Positions 7,191-64,000 of a stretch of 64,000 nucleotides of DNA are shown one piece after another. The stretch's first letter is position 1, and every line of letters starts with the position of its first letter. The stretch is taken from the NCBI RefSeq assembly GCF_036013745.1, contig NZ_CP107880.1, forward strand, positions 10,168,001 through 10,232,000. Reading direction: 5' to 3'. This DNA comes from Streptomyces sp. NBC_00483. Its GTDB lineage: Bacteria; Actinomycetota; Actinomycetes; Streptomycetales; Streptomycetaceae. A model generated the notes under the pieces. The model saw only the letters and a list, made by a program, of their open reading frames with translations, was not told where the DNA came from and did not search any database. The position numbers were made by a program, and so were the translations under genes.

Positions 7191-7857
7191 AGGACGCCGC
7201 CAGAATCTCCTGCACCCGCGCCGCGTTCGACGCGATGTGATGCCGTGCCTCCCGCTGCGCGCGCTCCGCGTCGCCCGCGCGGATCGCGGACATGAGAGGT
7301 TCGTGCTCGCCGAGCAGCTTGCGCGGGTTCTCGTTCTCGCGTTCGTGGGCGGACAACGCCATGAGGTAGAAGCGCAGTTCACGGGTGAGCCCGGCGTAGA
7401 ACGCGTCGAGGCGTGCGTTGCCGAGCGTCGCCACGATCGCCCCGTGGAAGGCCAGGTCCGCGGCCACGATGTCGGCACGCCGCAGTGAGCCCGTGACCGT
7501 GACGAGGTTCTCGTACGCCGCCTCCACAGCGGCGAGTTGAGCCGTGCCGAGGGGCGCCGCGAGGGCCGCCGCCTCCAAGTGCTCGCGCGCCATGTAGAGC
7601 TCGTCGACGCTCCGCGGCGTGGGGGAGATGACCACGGCCCCGCGGTTGGCCTGGAACCGGATCAGACCGCCGTGTTCCAGCAGACGGACGGCCTCGCGCA
7701 CCGTGTTGCGGGCGATGCCGAGTTCGGCGGCGATGGCGCTCTCGCGCAGGCGCTCGCCCGGCCGGAAGGAGCCGGCGAGGATCCGCTCCGACAGACCGTC
7801 GGCGATCTGCTGCGCGGTCGTGGTCCGCTGGGCCACCAGCCCTTCAAGTGCCGTCAT
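7180..7857 (-). CDS. GntR-family transcriptional regulator (FCD/FadR type)
   Basis: A 225-residue regulator with an N-terminal winged HTH (about residues 12-75, GERLRESAIAAELGIARN) and a C-terminal all-helical FCD ligand-binding domain. FCD domains typically sense small carboxylic or amino acids. The ATG at 7857 gives normal family length; the open frame extends further upstream without family similarity. It is divergent from the APC permease-aminotransferase-NCS1 group, which it probably regulates. A perfect inverted repeat at 8083-8097 is a candidate operator. Confidence 0.9.
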   Translation of the reverse strand: MTALEGLVAQRTTTAQQIADGLSERILAGSFRPGERLRESAIAAELGIARNTVREAVRLLEHGGLIRFQANRGAVVISPTPRSVDELYMAREHLEAAALAAPLGTAQLAAVEAAYENLVTVTGSLRRADIVAADLAFHGAIVATLGNARLDAFYAGLTRELRFYLMALSAHERENENPRKLLGEHEPLMSAIRAGDAERAQREARHHIASNAARVQEILAASFEG

Positions 7858-7890
7858 GGCGTCATCGTAGCCACCCTGTGACCCTAGGTC

Positions 7891-8066
7891 CCTTCTGGCG
7901 GATCCTGCTGGAGTCGCGGGGCCTGGCACGCACATCTGCTGCGTTGTCGTCGGTTGCCAACGCTCCGCGTTGACGCCCTCCTCCGCCTTGCAGCTGCACG
8001 CACCAGGCCCCGCTCGCCTGCACCGCACGTGGACGCCGTCCGCATCCAGCCTGATCCGCCAGAAGG
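7891..8066. repeat. Nested long inverted repeat, possible structured RNA or repeat element
   Basis: A 14-bp perfect outer stem (7891-7904 with 8053-8066) extends inward with few mismatches. An inner stem follows (7916-7926 with 8003-8013, 11 bp exact) and an apex hairpin CAACGC-TCC-GCGTTG (7958-7972). The whole 176-bp unit fills the gap between the GntR gene and the permease promoter. No coding frame is convincing. It could be a palindromic repeat element, a small RNA or a long leader fold. Confidence 0.5.
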
Positions 8067-47357: not shown

Positions 47358-47951
47358 CACTCCCGCAGCCCCCACCCCTGCCCCCCACCCCTGCCCCCTG
47401 CCCCCTGCTCTCTGCTCTCTGCGCCCGCGGGGGAGGGCGGGGGCGGGGCCGTGACAGTCCGGACACGGTGCCCGAGCCACGCCGTTCGCGGGAGGGGGGT
47501 GCAGACACCCGTGCGCTGCGGCCGGCCCACGGCGCACGGCGCACGCAGCACCCGGTCCACGTGCCTCGAGCGCGAAGCCGCTCGCCGCGCCGAGCGGCTC
47601 GCTGAGAGAAGAGAGCAGGGGGGGGGGCGGCGCCGCGATTCCGGGGTACCACCGCTCCCGCAGCCGGGGTGTCCTGCCGGCCGAGACCTCGGCCCCTCCA
47701 CTGCGGCTGCCGAGGATGGGGGCTGGCTGGGGCGGCGTTCTGCGGCTCCGCCCAGACGACTCCAACTGGCCCCATTTCACGGATGCTTGGTGCAGATCGG
47801 GCGACTTGAGATGGTCCCGGAGGGCGGGGCCGTGTGGGACCACAGCATTGTTGCCGTCCGTGGGTACGCGGGCGGGTTCGGCCGGTCTGGGAGGAGCAGC
47901 ACGGCCGATGGGGCTGCGCTGACAGACTGGGGCGGACCGACAGGGGGCCAC
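47358..47951. other. 594-bp gap, low-complexity pyrimidine runs
   Basis: CCCCTGCCCC-type runs (47370-47420) and a G-run at about 47623. No supported gene. The BAAT-type hydrolase frame remains open through much of it but lacks protein-like composition. Confidence 0.5.
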
Positions 47952-56178: not shown

Positions 56179-56554
56179 GCCCAGCGGTCCGGACCTCGAG
56201 CTGACGTCCGACCTCGTCCCGCTCTTCGTGATCACGAACGGGCGGTCCCTGCCCCCCGAGCACGAATTCGAGCACACCGCGATGGTGACCTCTGCCGACG
56301 GGTCCGAGGCCGCCCTGCGCGCCCTGACACCCGAGGCCCGCAGGGTCATGGAAGTGGTCACCGGCGGAGTCCTGTCCGTCGCCGAGGTCGCCGGCCACAC
56401 CCGGTTCCCGATCGGCGTCGTGCGCATCCTGCTGGCCCAACTCGCGGAGGCCGGCCTGCTCGACGTCCGCCAGCCGGTCCCGGCCGCCGAACTGGTGGAC
56501 ATCGACCTCGTCCGTGCTGTGCGCACCGGCCTGCAGAAGAAATTCGGAGTGTGA
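56171..56554 (+). CDS. cvnC: Conservon DUF742 protein (CvnC)
   Basis: A 127-residue DUF742 protein with a winged-helix-like C-terminal half: LVPLFVITNGRSLP, then VAEVAGHTRFPIGVVRILLAQLAEAGLL and RTGLQKKFGV. It is thought to link CvnA-B with the GTPase. ATG 56171 overlaps the cvnB stop by eight bases. Confidence 0.92.
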   Translation: MSEPSGPDLELTSDLVPLFVITNGRSLPPEHEFEHTAMVTSADGSEAALRALTPEARRVMEVVTGGVLSVAEVAGHTRFPIGVVRILLAQLAEAGLLDVRQPVPAAELVDIDLVRAVRTGLQKKFGV

Positions 56555-56555
56555 C

Positions 56556-57119
56556 GTGTACCTGGATCCCTCTGTCAGCCAGGCCGTGAAGGTGCTCATC
56601 GTGGGCCATTTCGGCGTGGGGAAAACCACCTGCATCGGCAGTCTCTCGGAGATCAAACCGCTGCGGACCGAAGAGCAGATCACGATGGCCAGTGTGGGGC
56701 TCGACGACCTCACCAACACACCGAACAAGACGACCACCACCGTGGCCATGGACTTCGGCCGCCTCACCCTCTCCGACAGCCTGGTCCTCTACCTGTTCGG
56801 CACGCCCGGCCAGGAGCGGTTCACCGAAATGTGGGAGGACCTCTCGCGCGGCGCACTGGGCGCGCTCGTCCTGGTCGACCCCGCGCGCATCGACGAGTCC
56901 TTCGCCGTCCTCGACCTCGTCGAGTCCTTCGGTCTCACCTACACGGTCGGTGTGAACTCCTTCGCGGGCGGCACCGAGTACGCCCTCAAGGAGGTGCACG
57001 AGGCACTGAACCTCCACCCCGAGACCCCGATCGTGCGGTGCGACGTACGCGACGAGCGTTCCTCCGCCGAGGCACTGATCACCCTCGTGCAGCACCTCAT
57101 GACCCAGCTCGCCGCCTAG
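56556..57119 (+). CDS. cvnD: Conservon small GTPase (CvnD)
   Basis: A 187-residue Ras-like GTPase of the MglA-related bacterial group. P-loop GHFGVGKTT, switch I region with TTTTVAMDFGRL, and switch II FGTPGQERFTEM, where Q replaces nothing and is conserved. The NKxD position is replaced by VNSFAG, as usual in this group. The GTG start is two bases after the cvnC stop. It acts as the molecular switch of the conservon. Confidence 0.93.
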   Translation: MYLDPSVSQAVKVLIVGHFGVGKTTCIGSLSEIKPLRTEEQITMASVGLDDLTNTPNKTTTTVAMDFGRLTLSDSLVLYLFGTPGQERFTEMWEDLSRGALGALVLVDPARIDESFAVLDLVESFGLTYTVGVNSFAGGTEYALKEVHEALNLHPETPIVRCDVRDERSSAEALITLVQHLMTQLAA

Positions 57120-57129
57120 GAGCCCCTGC

Positions 57130-58560
57130 ATGTCCCAGCCGACCGACCCCCGCCTGATACCGCCCGGCTGCCCCGCGCACACCCAGGGCGGCAACACCCA
57201 GCTGTACGGGACCGATTTCGCGGCCAACCCCGAGGCCTACTACGCGCACCTGCGACAGGCCGGGCCCAGCGCGCCCGTCGACATCGCCCCCGGCGTCGAG
57301 GCCGAACTCGTCACCAGCTACGACGCCGCCCTGCACATCCTGCAGAACCCGGCCACCTTCCCGCGCGACGCGCGCCGCTGGAACGCGCTGAACGAGGGGC
57401 GGGTGCCGGCCGACAGCCCGGCCCTGCCGATGATGGCCTGGCGGCGCAACGCCCTGTTCGCCGACGGTGCCGACCACGCCAAGCTGCGCCAGGCCGTCAC
57501 CGCTGCCCTGGCCACCGTGGACGAGCGTGCGCTGATCCGCCAGACCCAGGCCTCCGCCGACTACCTCATCAGCGGCTTCAGCTCGGACCGGCACGGCCGC
57601 GCCGAGCTCATGGCCGAGTACGCCGGCCCCCTGCCCCTGCTGGTCTTCTCCCACCTGTTCGGCTGCCCTCCCGAGATCGGCGACCGGGTCATCACCGGGA
57701 TCTCCGGCATCTTCGAGGGCGCCGCCGGCGCGGACCAGATCCTCGGCCAGGCGCTCGCCGAGCTGATCGCGCTCAAGCACCGCCGGCCGGGCGACGACCT
57801 CACCACCGAGCTGATCCGCCAGCACACCCTCCTCACCAGCGACCGGGCCGAGGCCGACGAGGCCGTGCTCCAGCAGCTCGTCACGCTGCTCTCCGGCGGC
57901 ACCGCGCCGCTCGCCGCGGCCATCGGCACCAGCGCCGCCCTGTACCTGGGGGAGGACTGGCCCACCGGCCTTCCGGTCGAGGACGCCGTCTCCCAGGCCC
58001 TGTGGTCCTACGCGCCGATCGCCAACTACGCCGGTCACTACCCGACGGTGGACATCGAACTCGGCGAGCGGAGGCTGCGGGCCGGCGATCCGGTGCTCAT
58101 CTCGTTCGCCGCGGCCAACACGGATCCGCGGCTGACCGAGCACCGGGCCCAGCTCAACTCGAAGGCCCATCTCGCGTTCGGGGCGGGACCCCACGCGTGT
58201 CCGGCGAAGGACCCGGCGCTGCTGATCGCGGTGACGGCGGTCGAGTGCCTGCTCAACCGGCTGCCCGACCTGGAGCTCGACAGGCCCTTCTCGGCGCTCG
58301 ACTGGGTGCCCTCGCCGTGGAGCCGCGCGCTGGCCGCGTTGCCCGTGCGCTTCTCCCCACGGGCCGTCTCCACCGCCTCCGCCCCGTACGAGTCCGCCGC
58401 CCCGGCGGTGTCCCGGCCCACGCCCGGCCTCCAGCCGCCCGCGGCCGAGCCGGCCGCCTCCGCTTCCACCGGAGCCGGCGTCGATGACGAGTCCGGCCAG
58501 GGCAAAAAGCGCAAGGCGGGACTGTTCAGCCGCTTCGTGGCATGGACCAGGGGCGAGTGA
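57130..58560 (+). CDS. cvnE: Cytochrome P450, CYP157-like, lacking ExxR (CvnE)
   Basis: A 476-residue P450 encoded ten bases after cvnD. The heme-ligand loop is HLAFGAGPHACPAKD with C357. The K-helix ExxR motif is replaced by Q289-A-L-W292 (VEDAVSQALWSYAPI), a hallmark of the CYP157 family, which shows that ExxR is not essential for heme binding. I-helix TLLSGGTAPLAAAIG lacks the usual acid-Thr pair. A hydrophilic tail of about 75 residues follows the P450 fold. Substrate unknown. Confidence 0.9.
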   Translation: MSQPTDPRLIPPGCPAHTQGGNTQLYGTDFAANPEAYYAHLRQAGPSAPVDIAPGVEAELVTSYDAALHILQNPATFPRDARRWNALNEGRVPADSPALPMMAWRRNALFADGADHAKLRQAVTAALATVDERALIRQTQASADYLISGFSSDRHGRAELMAEYAGPLPLLVFSHLFGCPPEIGDRVITGISGIFEGAAGADQILGQALAELIALKHRRPGDDLTTELIRQHTLLTSDRAEADEAVLQQLVTLLSGGTAPLAAAIGTSAALYLGEDWPTGLPVEDAVSQALWSYAPIANYAGHYPTVDIELGERRLRAGDPVLISFAAANTDPRLTEHRAQLNSKAHLAFGAGPHACPAKDPALLIAVTAVECLLNRLPDLELDRPFSALDWVPSPWSRALAALPVRFSPRAVSTASAPYESAAPAVSRPTPGLQPPAAEPAASASTGAGVDDESGQGKKRKAGLFSRFVAWTRGE

Positions 58561-58586
58561 CGCAGGCAACTCCACTTTCCTGCGGT

Positions 58587-58625
58587 GCCATTGGATACTC
58601 AAATGATCTTGTGGGTATCCATGGC
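58587..58625. promoter_or_regulatory. Inverted repeat between the two P450 genes
   Basis: GCCATTGGATAC and GTATCCATGGC pair with one bulge around a 16-base loop, 25 bases before the second P450 start. It could be an operator or weak terminator separating transcription of the second P450. Confidence 0.5.
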
Positions 58626-58649
58626 GGCTGATGCTCGGAAAGGAGCACA

Positions 58650-59900
58650 GTGGGAATCGCCGTACTGCCGCAGGATCTTCGCCGCGCCACCGTCAGAGTC
58701 TTCTCGCGCCTGCGCACCCCCCAGGGGCAGGCAAATCCACTCCCTCACTACGCCGAACTCGCTGCATCAGGACCGGTCAGCCCCGCACCCTGGGGCGGCC
58801 ACCTGGTCACCGGGTTCGCCGAGTGCGACCAGGTCCTGCGCGACCGGCAGTGGTGCGAACCCGACCGGCGCTGGCGCGAGCGGCAGGGCCGGGGCACCCG
58901 CTGGGCCGCGCCGTCCTCGCAGGAGATGAGCCACGCCCTGCCCAACCTCAACGGGCCGGAACACGCCCGAATACGCCGGGCGGCCGACGGTTTCGACCGC
59001 GCCGCCATCGGCCGTCTCCTCCCCGTGATCACGACAGCCACCGACCGCCTCCTCGACACATTCCACGAACAACTCCGCCACGGGGAGGCCGACTTCGCAG
59101 CCCTGGTCGGCGAGGAGCTCCCCATCGCCACGGTCGGACACTGGCTGGGTTTACCCCGCGCCGACTGGCCCCGGCTGCGCGAGCTCACCCACGACCAGGT
59201 GTTCACCCAGGAACTCCTGCCGACCGCGAGCCAGCTCGCCCGCTCCGACGCCGCAACCGTGGAACTGCGCACGTACTTCACCGACCTCGTCCGCGCTCGC
59301 CGCGCCCGCCCGGGAGACGACCCCGTCTCGCAGTGGATCCGCACCTGGGACACCCTCGAAACCGACCGCGACCAGGCCGACCACCAGGTCTACCACCTGG
59401 CCCGCTTCGTCCTGCTGGCCGCGCTGGAGACCACCGCGACCCTGCTGTCCCAAGCGGTCCTCCACCTCGTCGAACACCCCCTGCACTGGGACGCGGTCGC
59501 CGCCGACCCCGAACTCGTCCCGGGCGCCGTGGAGGAGAGCCTGCGCTACGACCCACCCACCCACGTCATCAGCCGCGTCGCCTCCCACGACATGCGCCTG
59601 GCCGGCCGCCACATCCGCGAGGGCGAGATGGCCCACCTCCTGATCGGCGCCGCCCACCACGACCCGCACCGGCACGCCGACCCCGCCACCTACAACCCGC
59701 ACCGAAACCCCGGGGGCCACCTCGCCTTCAGCGGCGGCGTCCACTACTGCCTCGGCGCCCCCCTGGTCCGCCTGGAAGCACAGACCCTCATCACCCAACT
59801 CACCCGCCGCATCCCCCGCCCCACCCTCGTACGCCCGCCCACCTGGGCGCCCCGCGTCGCCTTCCGCCGCCTCCTGAACCTGGACCTCACCCTCGCATGA
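58650..59900 (+). CDS. Cytochrome P450 (CYP154-like)
   Basis: A 416-residue P450 with complete motifs: I-helix AALETT (E260-T261), ExxR as E296-S-L-R299, and heme loop HLAFSGGVHYCLGA with C367. Conservons often carry a CYP157/CYP154 pair, and this fits the second member. The GTG start has GGAAAGGA upstream. It overlaps the enoyl-CoA hydratase-like gene by ATGA, so its oxidised product or substrate may be an acyl-CoA or other thioester; that is inference. Confidence 0.9.
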   Translation: MGIAVLPQDLRRATVRVFSRLRTPQGQANPLPHYAELAASGPVSPAPWGGHLVTGFAECDQVLRDRQWCEPDRRWRERQGRGTRWAAPSSQEMSHALPNLNGPEHARIRRAADGFDRAAIGRLLPVITTATDRLLDTFHEQLRHGEADFAALVGEELPIATVGHWLGLPRADWPRLRELTHDQVFTQELLPTASQLARSDAATVELRTYFTDLVRARRARPGDDPVSQWIRTWDTLETDRDQADHQVYHLARFVLLAALETTATLLSQAVLHLVEHPLHWDAVAADPELVPGAVEESLRYDPPTHVISRVASHDMRLAGRHIREGEMAHLLIGAAHHDPHRHADPATYNPHRNPGGHLAFSGGVHYCLGAPLVRLEAQTLITQLTRRIPRPTLVRPPTWAPRVAFRRLLNLDLTLA

Positions 59901-60652
59901 CCGACCACCTCCAGCCCTCCGACGGCTACAAAACCCTCCACCTCGACCAGGACGGGCCCGTCCTGCACGCCCGGCTCCACGCCGGCCGCACGGACGCCGT
60001 CCTCGACGTCGCCGCCATCGACGACCTCCTGCGACTGCTCGACAGCCTCACCGAGCGCACCGACGTGAAGGTCCTGGTCCTGTCCTCGCTGGCCGACGAC
60101 TTCTGCCTGGGAGCCGACCGCAGCGAGTTCGCCGACGCACGCAAGGCCGACCCGACCGGCGCGGCCCTGCGCCGCATCGTCGACAAGGGCTTCCGGCTCT
60201 GTCAGGCACTGGAGACCACCGACGCCATCACCATCGCGCGCCTCCACGGCCGGGTCACCGGTGCCGGCCTCGCCCTCGTCTCCTACTGCGACCTCCGCGT
60301 CGGCGCCGACACCAGCCGCTACCGCATGCCCGAAGTAGGCCTCGGACTGCCGCCCGCATGGGGAGGGGCCACCGGCCGCCTCATCACCGAGGTCGGAGTC
60401 TCCCGCATCCGCGAACTCATGCTGACCAGCCGCGAGTTCGACGCCGCCACCGCGCACCGGATCGACTTCCTGCACGACACCGTGCCCGAAGAGGACCTCG
60501 ACCGCGCGGTCACCGCCTGGACGCGTCTCCTCGGCCGCCGCTCCCAGGAATCAATGATCGCCGCCAAACGGATACTGACCGGCTACGCCCGCGCCCGTCA
60601 CACTGCCGACCTGGGCCCACTCGACGCCAATCTCCTCACCGCCCACCTGTAA
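59897..60652 (+). CDS. Enoyl-CoA hydratase/isomerase family protein
   Basis: A 251-residue crotonase-fold protein: oxyanion-hole segments CLGADRSEF and GRVTGAGLALVSYCDLRV, then YRMPEVGLGLPPAWGGATGRL. The second position often holding a catalytic Glu is E in PEVGLG; the other is replaced (TGAGLALVS). So the reaction could be hydration, isomerisation or another crotonase-type step. It is translationally coupled to the preceding P450, which is unusual for a conservon. Confidence 0.88.
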   Translation: MTDHLQPSDGYKTLHLDQDGPVLHARLHAGRTDAVLDVAAIDDLLRLLDSLTERTDVKVLVLSSLADDFCLGADRSEFADARKADPTGAALRRIVDKGFRLCQALETTDAITIARLHGRVTGAGLALVSYCDLRVGADTSRYRMPEVGLGLPPAWGGATGRLITEVGVSRIRELMLTSREFDAATAHRIDFLHDTVPEEDLDRAVTAWTRLLGRRSQESMIAAKRILTGYARARHTADLGPLDANLLTAHL

Positions 60653-60653
60653 T

Positions 60654-61140
60654 TCAGGTCGGGCTCGGAGCCGGGGTGGGCGCCTGCAGGAGGGAGGCGG
60701 GCAGATAGGCAGAGGTCGTCTGCAGGTCCCAGCCGTGGACCTGCACGGCCAGCACGGACAGACCGATCGCGCCCAGGGGGAGCAGGCTCTCGGGCCCGGC
60801 CTCTTCACCGGCGGCGCTTCGGTGGGTGACGAGCCGTTCGTGCAGCGCCTGCTCGAACGCGGCCTGGTCGCCGCGGAGCAGGATGCGCAGCAGCCGCTGG
60901 TCGGGGCCCGTGGCCCCGGCCGCATCCAGCGCGAGGGCAGCGTCGAGGCGCTCGCCCATCGACGGCATCCACAGGGGAACTTCCGGCCAGTAGCGGGGCA
61001 GACGGCCGGCCGACGGCGTCAAGTAACCGCACAGGGCGTCCACCTGCGCGAGACCGGCTGCATCGGAGACCGAGCCGCGCGCTACGCGCTGAACTCACCG
61101 ACGCGATGGAAGAGCGGCCTGTCGCTGCGGCGACTGCGGG
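60654..61140 (-). pseudogene. Imm49-family immunity protein remnant
   Basis: The C-terminal part is readable: LAQVDALCGYLTPSAGRLPRYWPEVPLWMP, LPLGAIGLSVLAVQVHGWDL, TSAYLPASLL, matching the Imm49 family. Upstream, the conserved HRVGEFSA segment lies in another frame and is followed by an in-frame TAG, so there is a stop plus a frameshift, and the N-terminal half is missing. No toxin gene is next to it. Confidence 0.72.
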
Positions 61141-61265
61141 TGTCGGGCGATCTTGCGGGTCTGCTGCGTCTACTCGCGATCGAGGCGCTCGGCCGGCGAA
61201 CCGTGTGAGACATGCAACGAACACCCATGATCAATTTCCGCCGCGTCCGGCCCGCCGCCTAGCGT

Positions 61266-61291
61266 CCCCCGGACACATCGACAGCCGGGGG
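61266..61291. promoter_or_regulatory. Inverted repeat upstream of the small-membrane-protein cluster
   Basis: CCCCCGG and CCGGGGG pair across 12 bases, 24 bases before the first start codon. It may be an operator, or a leader hairpin for the whole run of genes. Confidence 0.4.
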
Positions 61292-61314
61292 CTTATCGAG
61301 CGGAAAGACAGCAC

Positions 61315-61671
61315 GTGATGACCCCGGCCCACAGCGGCAGAGGCTCCGGGAGCCTCATATCCGCCCTGCTGCCCGACGGGGCAGAGGGGCCGTTCCTGGT
61401 GCTCCTCTTCGCCGCCCTGATCGGGCCGGCCTTCTACGGCCGGTACAAGCAGCGCCGCGACGGCACGCACCTGCCGCGTGTGAACGCCGCGGTGCAGCGG
61501 GGCGCGGCCCGGGTCACCCTCTGCGGCGCCGTCCTTGCGGAAATCCTCGGCCTGATCGGGATCTTCGCCTTCAAAGCCACGTGGTGGGCAGGCGTCGCGC
61601 CGCTCGTCCTCTGCGCCTTCGGGATCGTCCTGGTCCGATGGGCACGCGCGCACGCCCGGGGACACAGGTGA
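61315..61671 (+). CDS. Small membrane protein 1 of the overlapping cluster
   Basis: A 118-residue protein, first and largest of the run. Three predicted helices: PFLVLLFAALIGPAFYG, VTLCGAVLAEILGLIGIFAF and GVAPLVLCAFGIVLV, then a basic end ARAHARGHR. GTG 61315 or ATG 61318 could start it. Its stop overlaps the next start as GTGA. No family recognised. Confidence 0.72.
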   Translation: MMTPAHSGRGSGSLISALLPDGAEGPFLVLLFAALIGPAFYGRYKQRRDGTHLPRVNAAVQRGAARVTLCGAVLAEILGLIGIFAFKATWWAGVAPLVLCAFGIVLVRWARAHARGHR

Positions 61672-61865
61672 CGCGCTCGGACAAGTGGCTGGTCGTCGCC
61701 CTGGTCGTGCTGATCATGGCCACCATCTGCAACGTCGTCACGAGCCGCACCGGCTGGGGCCGCGTGCGCGAGCTGGCCATCGGCGTCTACGTCATCAGCT
61801 TTCTGGCCTGGCACCTCCGCAGCGACCGGCGCAAGCGGCGCGCAGGGAAGAGGAAGCCGAAGTGA
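61668..61865 (+). CDS. Small membrane protein 2 of the overlapping cluster
   Basis: A 65-residue protein: two helices (WLVVALVVLIMATICNVV, LAIGVYVISFLAWHL) and a very basic C-terminus RSDRRKRRAGKRKPK. It overlaps both neighbours by four bases (GTGA). The basic tail should face the cytoplasm. Confidence 0.75.
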   Translation: MTRSDKWLVVALVVLIMATICNVVTSRTGWGRVRELAIGVYVISFLAWHLRSDRRKRRAGKRKPK

Positions 61866-62107
61866 AGCTCCACATGGACTGGACGGACCGGGTCCTGCTC
61901 ATCGCACTGACCATCCTCGGCATTGCCAACGCCACGGACTCGGACACCTCGAACGGGTGGCGGCTGGGGGGCACCTTCATGCCCGCCGCCCTCGCCTGCA
62001 GCGTCATCCGCGCTGCCCGCCGCAAGCGGCGCAGGCAGCGTGCCGAGCGCCAGGCCCTGCTGACGCGCCTCGACCGCCTCATGCGCCGCGAGGTGAAGCG
62101 CCGATGA
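61862..62107 (+). CDS. Small membrane protein 3 of the overlapping cluster
   Basis: An 81-residue protein: two short helices (VLLIALTILGIANA, FMPAALACSVIRAA) with the loop TDSDTSNGWRLGG, then a long basic helix RRKRRRQRAERQALLTRLDRLMRREVKRR cut by the end of the gene. GTGA overlap on the left and ATGA on the right. Confidence 0.75.
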   Translation: MKLHMDWTDRVLLIALTILGIANATDSDTSNGWRLGGTFMPAALACSVIRAARRKRRRQRAERQALLTRLDRLMRREVKRR

Positions 62108-62319
62108 AGAAGCACCTGAAGAAGAACCTCCGCGCCGTGCCGGGCGGTGCTGCGGTCAGCGCGGCGGGCGGGGCGAGCGGCGCCGCCTGGGGCGGATCCG
62201 GCGGCGCCGTCGTGCCGTGGTGGCTGTGTGCCCTCGTAGGAATCGTTCTCCTCCCACTGATCGTGATCATCGTCAAGAACGTCCGTGACATGGTCCGGCT
62301 GGCGAAGGCGAACCGATGA
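62104..62319 (+). CDS. Small membrane protein 4, Gly/Ala-WWL type
   Basis: A 71-residue protein: basic MKKHLKKNLRAV, a Gly/Ala-rich segment, one helix VVPWWLCALVGIVLLPLIVI and a C-terminal VKNVRDMVRLAKANR. It is a clear paralogue of protein 6 (MPWWLWALLGAVLC, VKNIRDALSLAKANR). ATGA overlaps at both ends. Confidence 0.78.
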   Translation: MKKHLKKNLRAVPGGAAVSAAGGASGAAWGGSGGAVVPWWLCALVGIVLLPLIVIIVKNVRDMVRLAKANR

Positions 62320-62525
62320 AGTGGATCTCGCCCAGCGGGCCGCCGCGCAGCCGGAGGTTCCATGCCGTCCAGATCGGGCTCGTCGTGGGCTGCTGCCTCG
62401 CGGCCGGCGTCGAGGCCTCCGTATGGCGCTACTCGGTGCAGGCGGCCTGCACCGGCGCGCTGATTGCCTCGTCCGTCTGGAACTGGTGGCGCATGCGGCG
62501 CACATGGAAGAAGGGCCCCAAGTGA
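62316..62525 (+). CDS. Small membrane protein 5 of the overlapping cluster
   Basis: A 69-residue protein: basic N-terminus, two helices (IGLVVGCCLAAGVEASVW, AACTGALIASSVWNWW) and basic tail RMRRTWKKGPK, similar in plan to protein 2. ATGA overlap on the left and GTGA on the right. Confidence 0.75.
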   Translation: MKWISPSGPPRSRRFHAVQIGLVVGCCLAAGVEASVWRYSVQAACTGALIASSVWNWWRMRRTWKKGPK

Positions 62526-62743
62526 TCAAGCGCCTGAAGAAGCTCGGTGCGATGCCCGCCACCACTGGCGGCGTCGCCGCTGGCGGGGTCGGCGGCAGCA
62601 CCTGGAGCGGATTCGGTTCCGATGTCGCCGTGGTCATGCCGTGGTGGCTGTGGGCCCTCTTGGGGGCCGTCCTCTGCGCGCTGTTCGTGGCCACCGTCAA
62701 GAACATCCGTGACGCACTCAGTCTGGCAAAGGCGAACCGATGA
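62522..62743 (+). CDS. Small membrane protein 6, Gly-WWL type
   Basis: A 73-residue paralogue of protein 4: basic MIKRLKKLGAM, Gly-rich GGVAAGGVGGSTWSGFGS, one helix VVMPWWLWALLGAVLCALFV and the shared end VKNIRDALSLAKANR. The GTG start and stop both overlap neighbours by four bases. Confidence 0.78.
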   Translation: MIKRLKKLGAMPATTGGVAAGGVGGSTWSGFGSDVAVVMPWWLWALLGAVLCALFVATVKNIRDALSLAKANR

Positions 62744-63162
62744 AGCCGCGTGCCAAACGGCGGCTCAAGTTCGTGGGTGTGGTTGCGGACCCGCCGAAGC
62801 CGCTCACCGTCCTGGAGATCGTGGTGAACGTTGCCACGGTCGTCATGGTCTTCGGCGCCCTCGGGTTCATCACCGGCAAGTGGGACATGGCGATCGGCGC
62901 GGGCGTCAGCGGCACGGGGGTCCACCTCCTGTTCCAGTGGTGGTGGCGCCGTTCCGACCGGCCGGAGCACAACGAGGGCGAAGATGGGGAAGCCCACGAG
63001 GCTCGTCCTGTACGCCTTGGTCGTGTTCGCCGTTCTGGGCGCCATCGGAGCCGTCACGGGAAAGTGGAACGCCGTCATCAACGGCGGGTGCATTTTTCTC
63101 GGCTCCGTGGGCTGGAACTACTTCCACGCCCGGCGCATCGAGCAGCGCGGGAACGACGATGA
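62740..63162 (+). CDS. Small membrane protein 7, C-terminus probably read through
   Basis: The frame gives 140 residues, but only the first 80 are convincing: basic KPRAKRRLK, helix LEIVVNVATVVMVFGALGF, ITGKWDMAIGAGV, helix SGTGVHLLFQWWWRR, then SDRPEHNEGED. From about 62984 on, codon bias switches to another frame (protein 8), so the natural stop was probably lost and the tail (RPVRLGRVRRSGRHRSRHG) is shadow sequence. The frame ends in an ATGA junction with the following start. Confidence 0.65.
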   Translation: MKPRAKRRLKFVGVVADPPKPLTVLEIVVNVATVVMVFGALGFITGKWDMAIGAGVSGTGVHLLFQWWWRRSDRPEHNEGEDGEAHEARPVRLGRVRRSGRHRSRHGKVERRHQRRVHFSRLRGLELLPRPAHRAARERR

Positions 63163-63169
63163 TCATTAA
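62984..63169 (+). CDS. Small membrane protein 8 of the overlapping cluster
   Basis: A 61-residue protein nested within the extended frame of protein 7: helix LVLYALVVFAVLGAIGAVTG, GKWNAVINGGCIFLG, SVGWNYFHARRIEQRGNDDDH. It is paralogous to protein 7 around the TGKWxxxI motif. High third-position GC supports this frame over the overlapping one. Confidence 0.7.
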   Translation: MGKPTRLVLYALVVFAVLGAIGAVTGKWNAVINGGCIFLGSVGWNYFHARRIEQRGNDDDH

Positions 63170-63444
63170 CGTCCTGGTCCGGATCATGTACGCGCTCATC
63201 CTCGGCGGCCTTCGGTGCCATCACCGTCGCCGTCTGCGCTGTCTGGAACCTGCGCCGGGCCACGGTGTACCGCGACAAACGGCTTGGCAGCTCCGGCACC
63301 CGTATCAGCCGGTTCCTGGCCACGCGTACCGGCCTCGCCGTCATGCTCGTAGTGCTGGCGCTGGCCATGGCGCTCTTCATGCTCGGCTGGGGCAATGTCC
63401 CACGCGGGACGCCTCCGGGAAGTGCGGCATGCCCAGCCACATGA
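63159..63444 (+). pseudogene. Small membrane protein 9, frameshifted
   Basis: Reading begins ATG 63159 (IINVLVRIMYALILGGL). At about 63200 the coding signal moves by one base into FGAITVAVCAVWNLRRATVY and continues with TGLAVMLVVLALAMALFMLGWGN to a stop at 63442-63444. Together they form one two-helix protein of about 95 residues interrupted by a one-base indel. Confidence 0.62.
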
Positions 63445-63515
63445 ACTGGTAGCCAAGCAGGGAGCCTGGCCCCCCTGTCCGGGAATCGCGACCATTACGG
63501 CCGCTCCCGAAGTTT

Positions 63516-63755
63516 CTACTCCTCCTGCTTCGGTGGGTTCCGAGTGACCTGACGGAGCTGCTTCTCGACGTCGAACCGGTTGAGGTCGCTTTTGAACGCG
63601 TACATGGAGACCGCATCCTGTGCCCTCGCCGCGGCCTCGAACCAGACCTCGCGTTGCTTCTCGCGTTCATCATCATCGAGGTGCTCGAGCTTCCGGCCCT
63701 CGTCGTCGGCCGAGTGGAGGCGCGATACGGCGGCAGAGCTCCACAACCGGATCAT
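63516..63755 (-). CDS. Small charged hypothetical protein
   Basis: A 79-residue soluble protein with a helical, strongly charged middle (DDEGRKLEHLDDDEREKQREVW, shortened here to its core LEHLDDDEREKQ) and SMYAFKSDLNRFDVEKQLRQV. Its ATG overlaps the stop of the upstream small gene by four bases (ATGA). No family recognised. It converges with the membrane-protein cluster. Confidence 0.6.
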   Translation of the reverse strand: MIRLWSSAAVSRLHSADDEGRKLEHLDDDEREKQREVWFEAAARAQDAVSMYAFKSDLNRFDVEKQLRQVTRNPPKQEE

Positions 63756-63961
63756 CGTCGGCGGAGCGAGGTCGGGTCAGCTCGGATCCGTCCGCAGCTG
63801 CCCGGTGGCGGGGCCGCGGGAGCCAGGGTGACGCCATGGGCTGCTGCGAGGCGGATGACTGCATCCTCGAAGGCCGTGATGTTCTTCCCCGTCGGGCCTT
63901 CGGAGCGGGCCCTTGCAGAGGCGGCGTTCAATTCGGCCTGAGCTGCTTCCTTTCCCTCCAT
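63752..63961 (-). CDS. Small hypothetical protein
   Basis: A 69-residue frame: EGKEAAQAELNAASARARSE, GKNITAFEDAVIRLAAAHGV, then a Pro/Arg-rich end. The ATGA coupling to the next gene supports translation. It may be the first gene of a two-gene unit on the minus strand. Function unknown. Confidence 0.52.
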   Translation of the reverse strand: MEGKEAAQAELNAASARARSEGPTGKNITAFEDAVIRLAAAHGVTLAPAAPPPGSCGRIRADPTSLRRR

Positions 63962-64000
63962 GCTGCGACTTTATGAGAGGAAGCTCGGCTGACCGGTGCG

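Follow-up and report, generated by a model that had tools for sequence, protein, structure and literature searches.

A run of tiny, overlapping membrane-protein genes at positions 61,315 to 63,444 of the 64,000-base stretch analyzed here (the window, bases 10168001-10232000 of a 10,237,418-base contig of Streptomyces sp. NBC_00483) is shown by sequence comparison to be real. It is one version of an operon that some Streptomyces carry in several copies, scattered over the genome and shuffled relative to one another. Related clusters lie at three more sites in the same genome and at five sites in strain NBC_01016, while strain KL109B has two in tandem; the leader gave four, five, and two matches in these genomes, respectively. 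Further carrying strains include NPDC051684, NPDC102360, NPDC002795, UC4497, BH097, and BH106. The common plan of the clusters comprises a conserved leader of ~110 bp, a changing chain of overlapping genes encoding proteins with one to three helices, and a constant last gene, Z. Comparison of gene neighborhoods and frames across Streptomyces, as proposed in the initial annotation of this run, revealed that the leader, the overlaps, and Z are common to several sites in three strains, and that the frames recur in NBC_01016, KL109B, and the other sites of the same genome. The interest of the system lies in this design of constant ends and a variable middle rather than in the window copy, which is poor material for study; intact clusters are available elsewhere in the same chromosome (loci L007 and L008).

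Seven genes of the window (A, B, C, D, E, D′, and F; these names, like G and Z, are labels of this analysis) are chained by six successive overlaps of 4 nt each, A through F, confirming the junctions reported initially. Of the approximately nine genes first counted, the seven chained genes plus an eighth, G, lying after the chain, were upheld, and the ninth, Z, proved to be broken in this copy. The components are as follows:

61203..61314, + strand: leader, a conserved element of ~110 bp 5′ of gene A, recognized from aligned left ends; GTGTGAGAC ... CCCCCGG-loop-CCGGGGG.
61318..61671, + strand: gene A, 117 aa, three helices; relatives in L008 and L024.
61668..61865, + strand: gene B, 65 aa, two helices, basic tail; related to C.
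61862..62107, + strand: gene C, 81 aa, two helices, conserved basic tail; 20 relatives.
62104..62319, + strand: gene D, 71 aa, one helix; paralog of D′ and of D in L024 and L027.
62316..62525, + strand: gene E, 69 aa, one to two helices, basic tail; decayed relative in L027.
62522..62743, + strand: gene D′, 73 aa, a duplicate of D.
62740..63162, + strand: gene F, 140 aa without its stop in the window copy, 83 aa in the ortholog; relatives in L006, L007, L027, and L028.
62984..63169, + strand: gene G, 61 aa, related to F; decayed relative in the first KL109B cluster.
63159..63452, + strand: remnant of the constant last gene, Z; the intact form has 115 aa, three helices, and an HMNW end.

By itself, the overlap chain is only moderately unlikely under chance: the longest chain of 60-125-aa open reading frames (ORFs) has seven members including a doubtful ORF at 61106 and six without it, and among 300 shuffled sequences a chain of six arose in 2 and a chain of seven in none. 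Recurrence of the frames in other genomes, together with a third-position G+C of 84-95% in A, B, C, D, E, D′, and G, is stronger evidence for genes than the overlaps. An alternative start for gene A is possible at the GTG at 61315. Kinship of B and C was indicated by an hhalign probability of 98, and within the C family the helices vary and the conserved, cytoplasmic-type tail contains invariant residues. AlphaFold2 models of Z and F contain helices only, with mean pLDDT values of 57 and 61, respectively. The initial annotation had deduced equal or assembled products, as in a multi-subunit membrane complex, from the coupling; the translationally coupled chain was confirmed, and assembly of its products is presumed.

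The exchange of inner genes is best seen at the tRNA-Ser site, where L007 is the cluster of the NBC_00483 genome and L024 its NBC_01016 counterpart. The two are 97.4% identical over 6,207 bp running through Z plus the last bases of the preceding gene, and 93.2% identical over 518 bp including the leader. The inner DNA (L007 6146-7127 versus L024 9165-9941) gave no match at E 1e-10, and the inner genes have therefore been replaced as a block. KL109B has yet another gene content at this site. L027 is a mosaic: its c-d-C genes match L007 (74.6%), E-D-F the window (82.1%) with D-F also matching L006 (92.7%), j matches L008 (77.4%), k-Z KL109B (75.6%), and Z with the right flank L006 (97.7%). Both the mosaic and the swap at the L007 site would fit recombination through similar ends.

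Replacement of gene content between strains at a single site is also what an immunity-type role, giving protection from phages or from strains of a different cluster type, might produce. Several comparisons show rapid change of the inner genes; for example, L006 and L027 differ by replacement to silent changes of 10:1 for F and 11:6 for D, while Z gave 4:12. Separately calculated dN/dS values between paralogs serve as a hint only, as almost every third position is G or C. The variable helices and conserved tail of the C family and the remnant of an Imm49 gene adjoining the window copy point in the same direction, and the clusters resemble polymorphic immunity gene arrays in having strain-variable gene sets beside conserved parts. 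However, PADLOC models matched 0 of 10 proteins at E 1, no toxin gene was identified, the cluster proteins are membrane hairpins belonging to no Imm family, and no Imm gene was named beside the other clusters among the 10 flanking frames scanned in all. An immunity role is considered improbable.

Comparison with relatives places the operon at tRNA-Ser(GCT) inside what is evidently an integrated element remnant. The DNA found beyond the L007 cluster directly adjoins the end of this tRNA gene in relatives, and in all eight fetched genomes the site is empty, with a terminator-like hairpin close behind the tRNA and no insert. In the NBC_00483 genome the same hairpin stands on the far side of the cluster, preceded by an imperfect tRNA-end copy that agrees at 27 of 36 bases and includes an exact match of 17 (L007 4708-4724 and 7330-7346); a similar copy was read by eye in L024. 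The TGGCAC repeats beside the L007 copy are presumably comparable to integrase arm sites. The island, of ~2.6 kb, consists of the cluster and one frame, which gave no Pfam match and is assumed to be phosphotransferase-like. In KL109B, a C-terminal remnant of a tyrosine integrase lies beside tRNA-Ser, and the tRNA copy at the far end is merely partial.

No integrase lies inside the island of the NBC_00483 genome. An intact tyrosine integrase at L007 7705-8979, next to tRNA-Arg(ACG) at 7551-7624, probably belongs to a second element beside the cluster island; it was rejected as the driver of the cluster because it sits beyond tRNA-Arg, and genomes G023 and G030, which carry DNA like its 3′ part yet have no cluster match, count against it as well.

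The structure of the operon is directly observed; for the function of its proteins, analogy tentatively favors, ahead of the other proposals, a membrane-complex module that belongs to integrative elements of Streptomyces and can be exchanged, working in a spread (Spd)-like or exclusion-like manner without shown kinship to either. Re-initiation from gene to gene on one transcript would yield matched amounts of subunits, the inner subunits would join Z in a membrane assembly, the operon would travel between strains on integrative elements, and the inner genes would be swapped by recombination within the leader and Z, whose sequences are similar among copies. The resulting complex might help DNA of the carrier element to spread through the mycelium, or exclude related elements. 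Support comes from the leader, Z, and overlaps shared by sites and strains, the block replacement, the tRNA-Ser ends, and the KL109B integrase remnant.

The closest working likeness is found in the Spd operons, such as spdA-spdB-orf66 of pIJ101, which likewise consist of small, coupled genes for membrane proteins on mobile DNA of Streptomyces; spdB of pIJ101 overlaps the next frame by 4 nt. Sections of PMC4170104 describe three to six diverse, often unique spd genes on each Streptomyces plasmid, such that gene sets vary between elements, and portray SpdB2 as an oligomeric membrane protein with TraB and Spd79 as partners. The clusters differ in lacking a pIJ101 sequence match and a nearby tra gene, and in having more and smaller genes, a constant leader and last gene, and several copies per chromosome. 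A second likeness is to decayed actinomycete integrative and conjugative elements (AICEs), for which parts of PMC9513070 describe remnants and accretion at tRNA genes and one family at different sites. Insertion at tRNA-Ser, the imperfect tRNA-end copy, the integrase remnant, and tandem clusters at one site agree with such an origin, whereas no transfer gene was found and some clusters occupy sites without detected element ends.

Several results weigh against a module of this kind. Searching the 11 cluster sequences with nine pIJ101 coding sequences (CDSs) by tblastn gave no cluster match, the sole hit (E 0.085, window 47685-47795) lying outside the cluster; this is a weak test because Spd proteins often show no relationship from one plasmid to another, according to the same sections of PMC4170104. 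The nearest PF01580 (FtsK/TraB-type) gene to any cluster in the three genomes is 38.6 kb away, a sigma-70 consensus scan of the leader found no promoter-like site, and element ends were demonstrated at the tRNA-Ser site only. Furthermore, the window copy carries lesions and evolves neutrally, and damage extends to several other copies.

In the window, gene F runs on to 63162 without the stop present in its NBC_01016 ortholog, and Z has suffered an internal deletion and further frame disruption, with its conserved end at 63452 in a different frame. Against NBC_01016, the window copy has 26 replacement and 7 silent changes, a ratio consistent with an absence of selection (p 0.69 against neutral), and is degenerating; the neighboring genes in the same comparison are constrained. 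This copy is probably no longer functional. Lesions also affect gene A of NBC_01016, frameshifted by a 7-nt insertion, gene E of L027, the first KL109B cluster, and the truncated L006. These data are what would be expected if the clusters had no present cellular function and were the remains of element cargo, drifting and reshuffled as repeated sequences, an explanation that is held to be rather unlikely, though it is a stronger contender than immunity.

About equally doubtful is a more far-reaching proposal, that of a cassette-type hypervariable system. Between the constant leader and last gene would lie an ordered set of coupled mini-membrane proteins open to exchange; elements would bring it to several sites, recombination would reassort it, and the resulting strain-specific complexes would recognize or exclude related elements or kin. 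If the operon does encode an exchangeable membrane complex, it would define a class of membrane operon particular to each strain, with genes that annotation readily overlooks owing to their small size (~40-115 aa) and their overlaps. The constant ends and swapped middle offer a test case for how such gene sets reassort, and for whether Streptomyces spread or exclusion genes outlive loss of the rest of an element.

Searches of the cluster proteins and sequence against Pfam, NCBIfam, PADLOC, and Rfam yielded no family over threshold, in agreement with the initial statement that none was recognized. Protein size, two helices (one to three across the set), and basic tails are reminiscent of a phage lysis or holin-like module or of small pore-forming toxins, and holin families did appear among sub-threshold matches: in PHROGs for E (E 0.11) and D′ (E 0.13), in NCBIfam for D′ (E 0.032), and in Pfam for gene k of L027 (E 0.00099, below the cut-off). 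The clusters differ from phage holins in having no family match over the cut-off and no phage record. A holin-like or pore-forming role is held to be very unlikely. The initial annotation had seen a likeness to Spd or holin sets in general shape only. Searches of the open-licence PMC library, a scope that leaves subscription papers outside, showed no description of the operon.

A genus search with Z matched 3 of 295 genomes and one with F 8 of 392, with the NBC_00483 genome alone convincing; the matches in two and seven other genomes, respectively (E 1.3e-4 to 7.0e-4, within frames of 189-701 aa), were dismissed as chance membrane-helix matches. Searching by its repeats for the parental element likewise returned 1 of 295 genomes, that of NBC_00483 itself.

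The leader may act as a promoter, and TAGCGT within it was read by eye as a -10 box. The hairpin-like repeat first noted 5′ of gene A is present there as CCCCCGG-loop-CCGGGGG; the idea that it is unusually stable was unsupported when examined.

As to chromosomal setting, window 60600-64000 is duplicated on the opposite strand at C1:5470-8870 of the same genome with 100% identity, and the two contig ends match each other at 99.97% over the last 11.4 kb. The cluster thus lies within a terminal inverted repeat and is present in two copies per chromosome. A search of the window revealed no tRNA, end repeats within 250 bp of the window cluster and within 250 bp on each side of the L008 and L027 clusters were unconvincing in a test that also misses the known L007 ends, and no tRNA-Ser end copy was seen in L012 or L025. 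Translations of window 56514-60652 are taken to be a small GTPase, two P450s, and an enoyl-CoA hydratase; one partial frame there gave no match in a family search, and these genes with two further frames are, as a group, under strong purifying selection. The Imm49 relic reported just upstream of the run was verified as a C-terminal fragment at window 60654-61043 on the minus strand, ~160 bp upstream of the leader (PF15575, E 1.6e-14), and is kept in NBC_01016 at 97%.

Just upstream of the L027 leader, a divergent 71-aa frame (7845-8060, minus strand) gave no Pfam match over the cut-off, and ~100 bp of DNA at this frame are common to L008, perhaps as a remnant of it. Short, isolated matches to the last bases of Z at L009 5651-5719 and at C1:8719952-8719983 of the NBC_00483 genome may mark former clusters.
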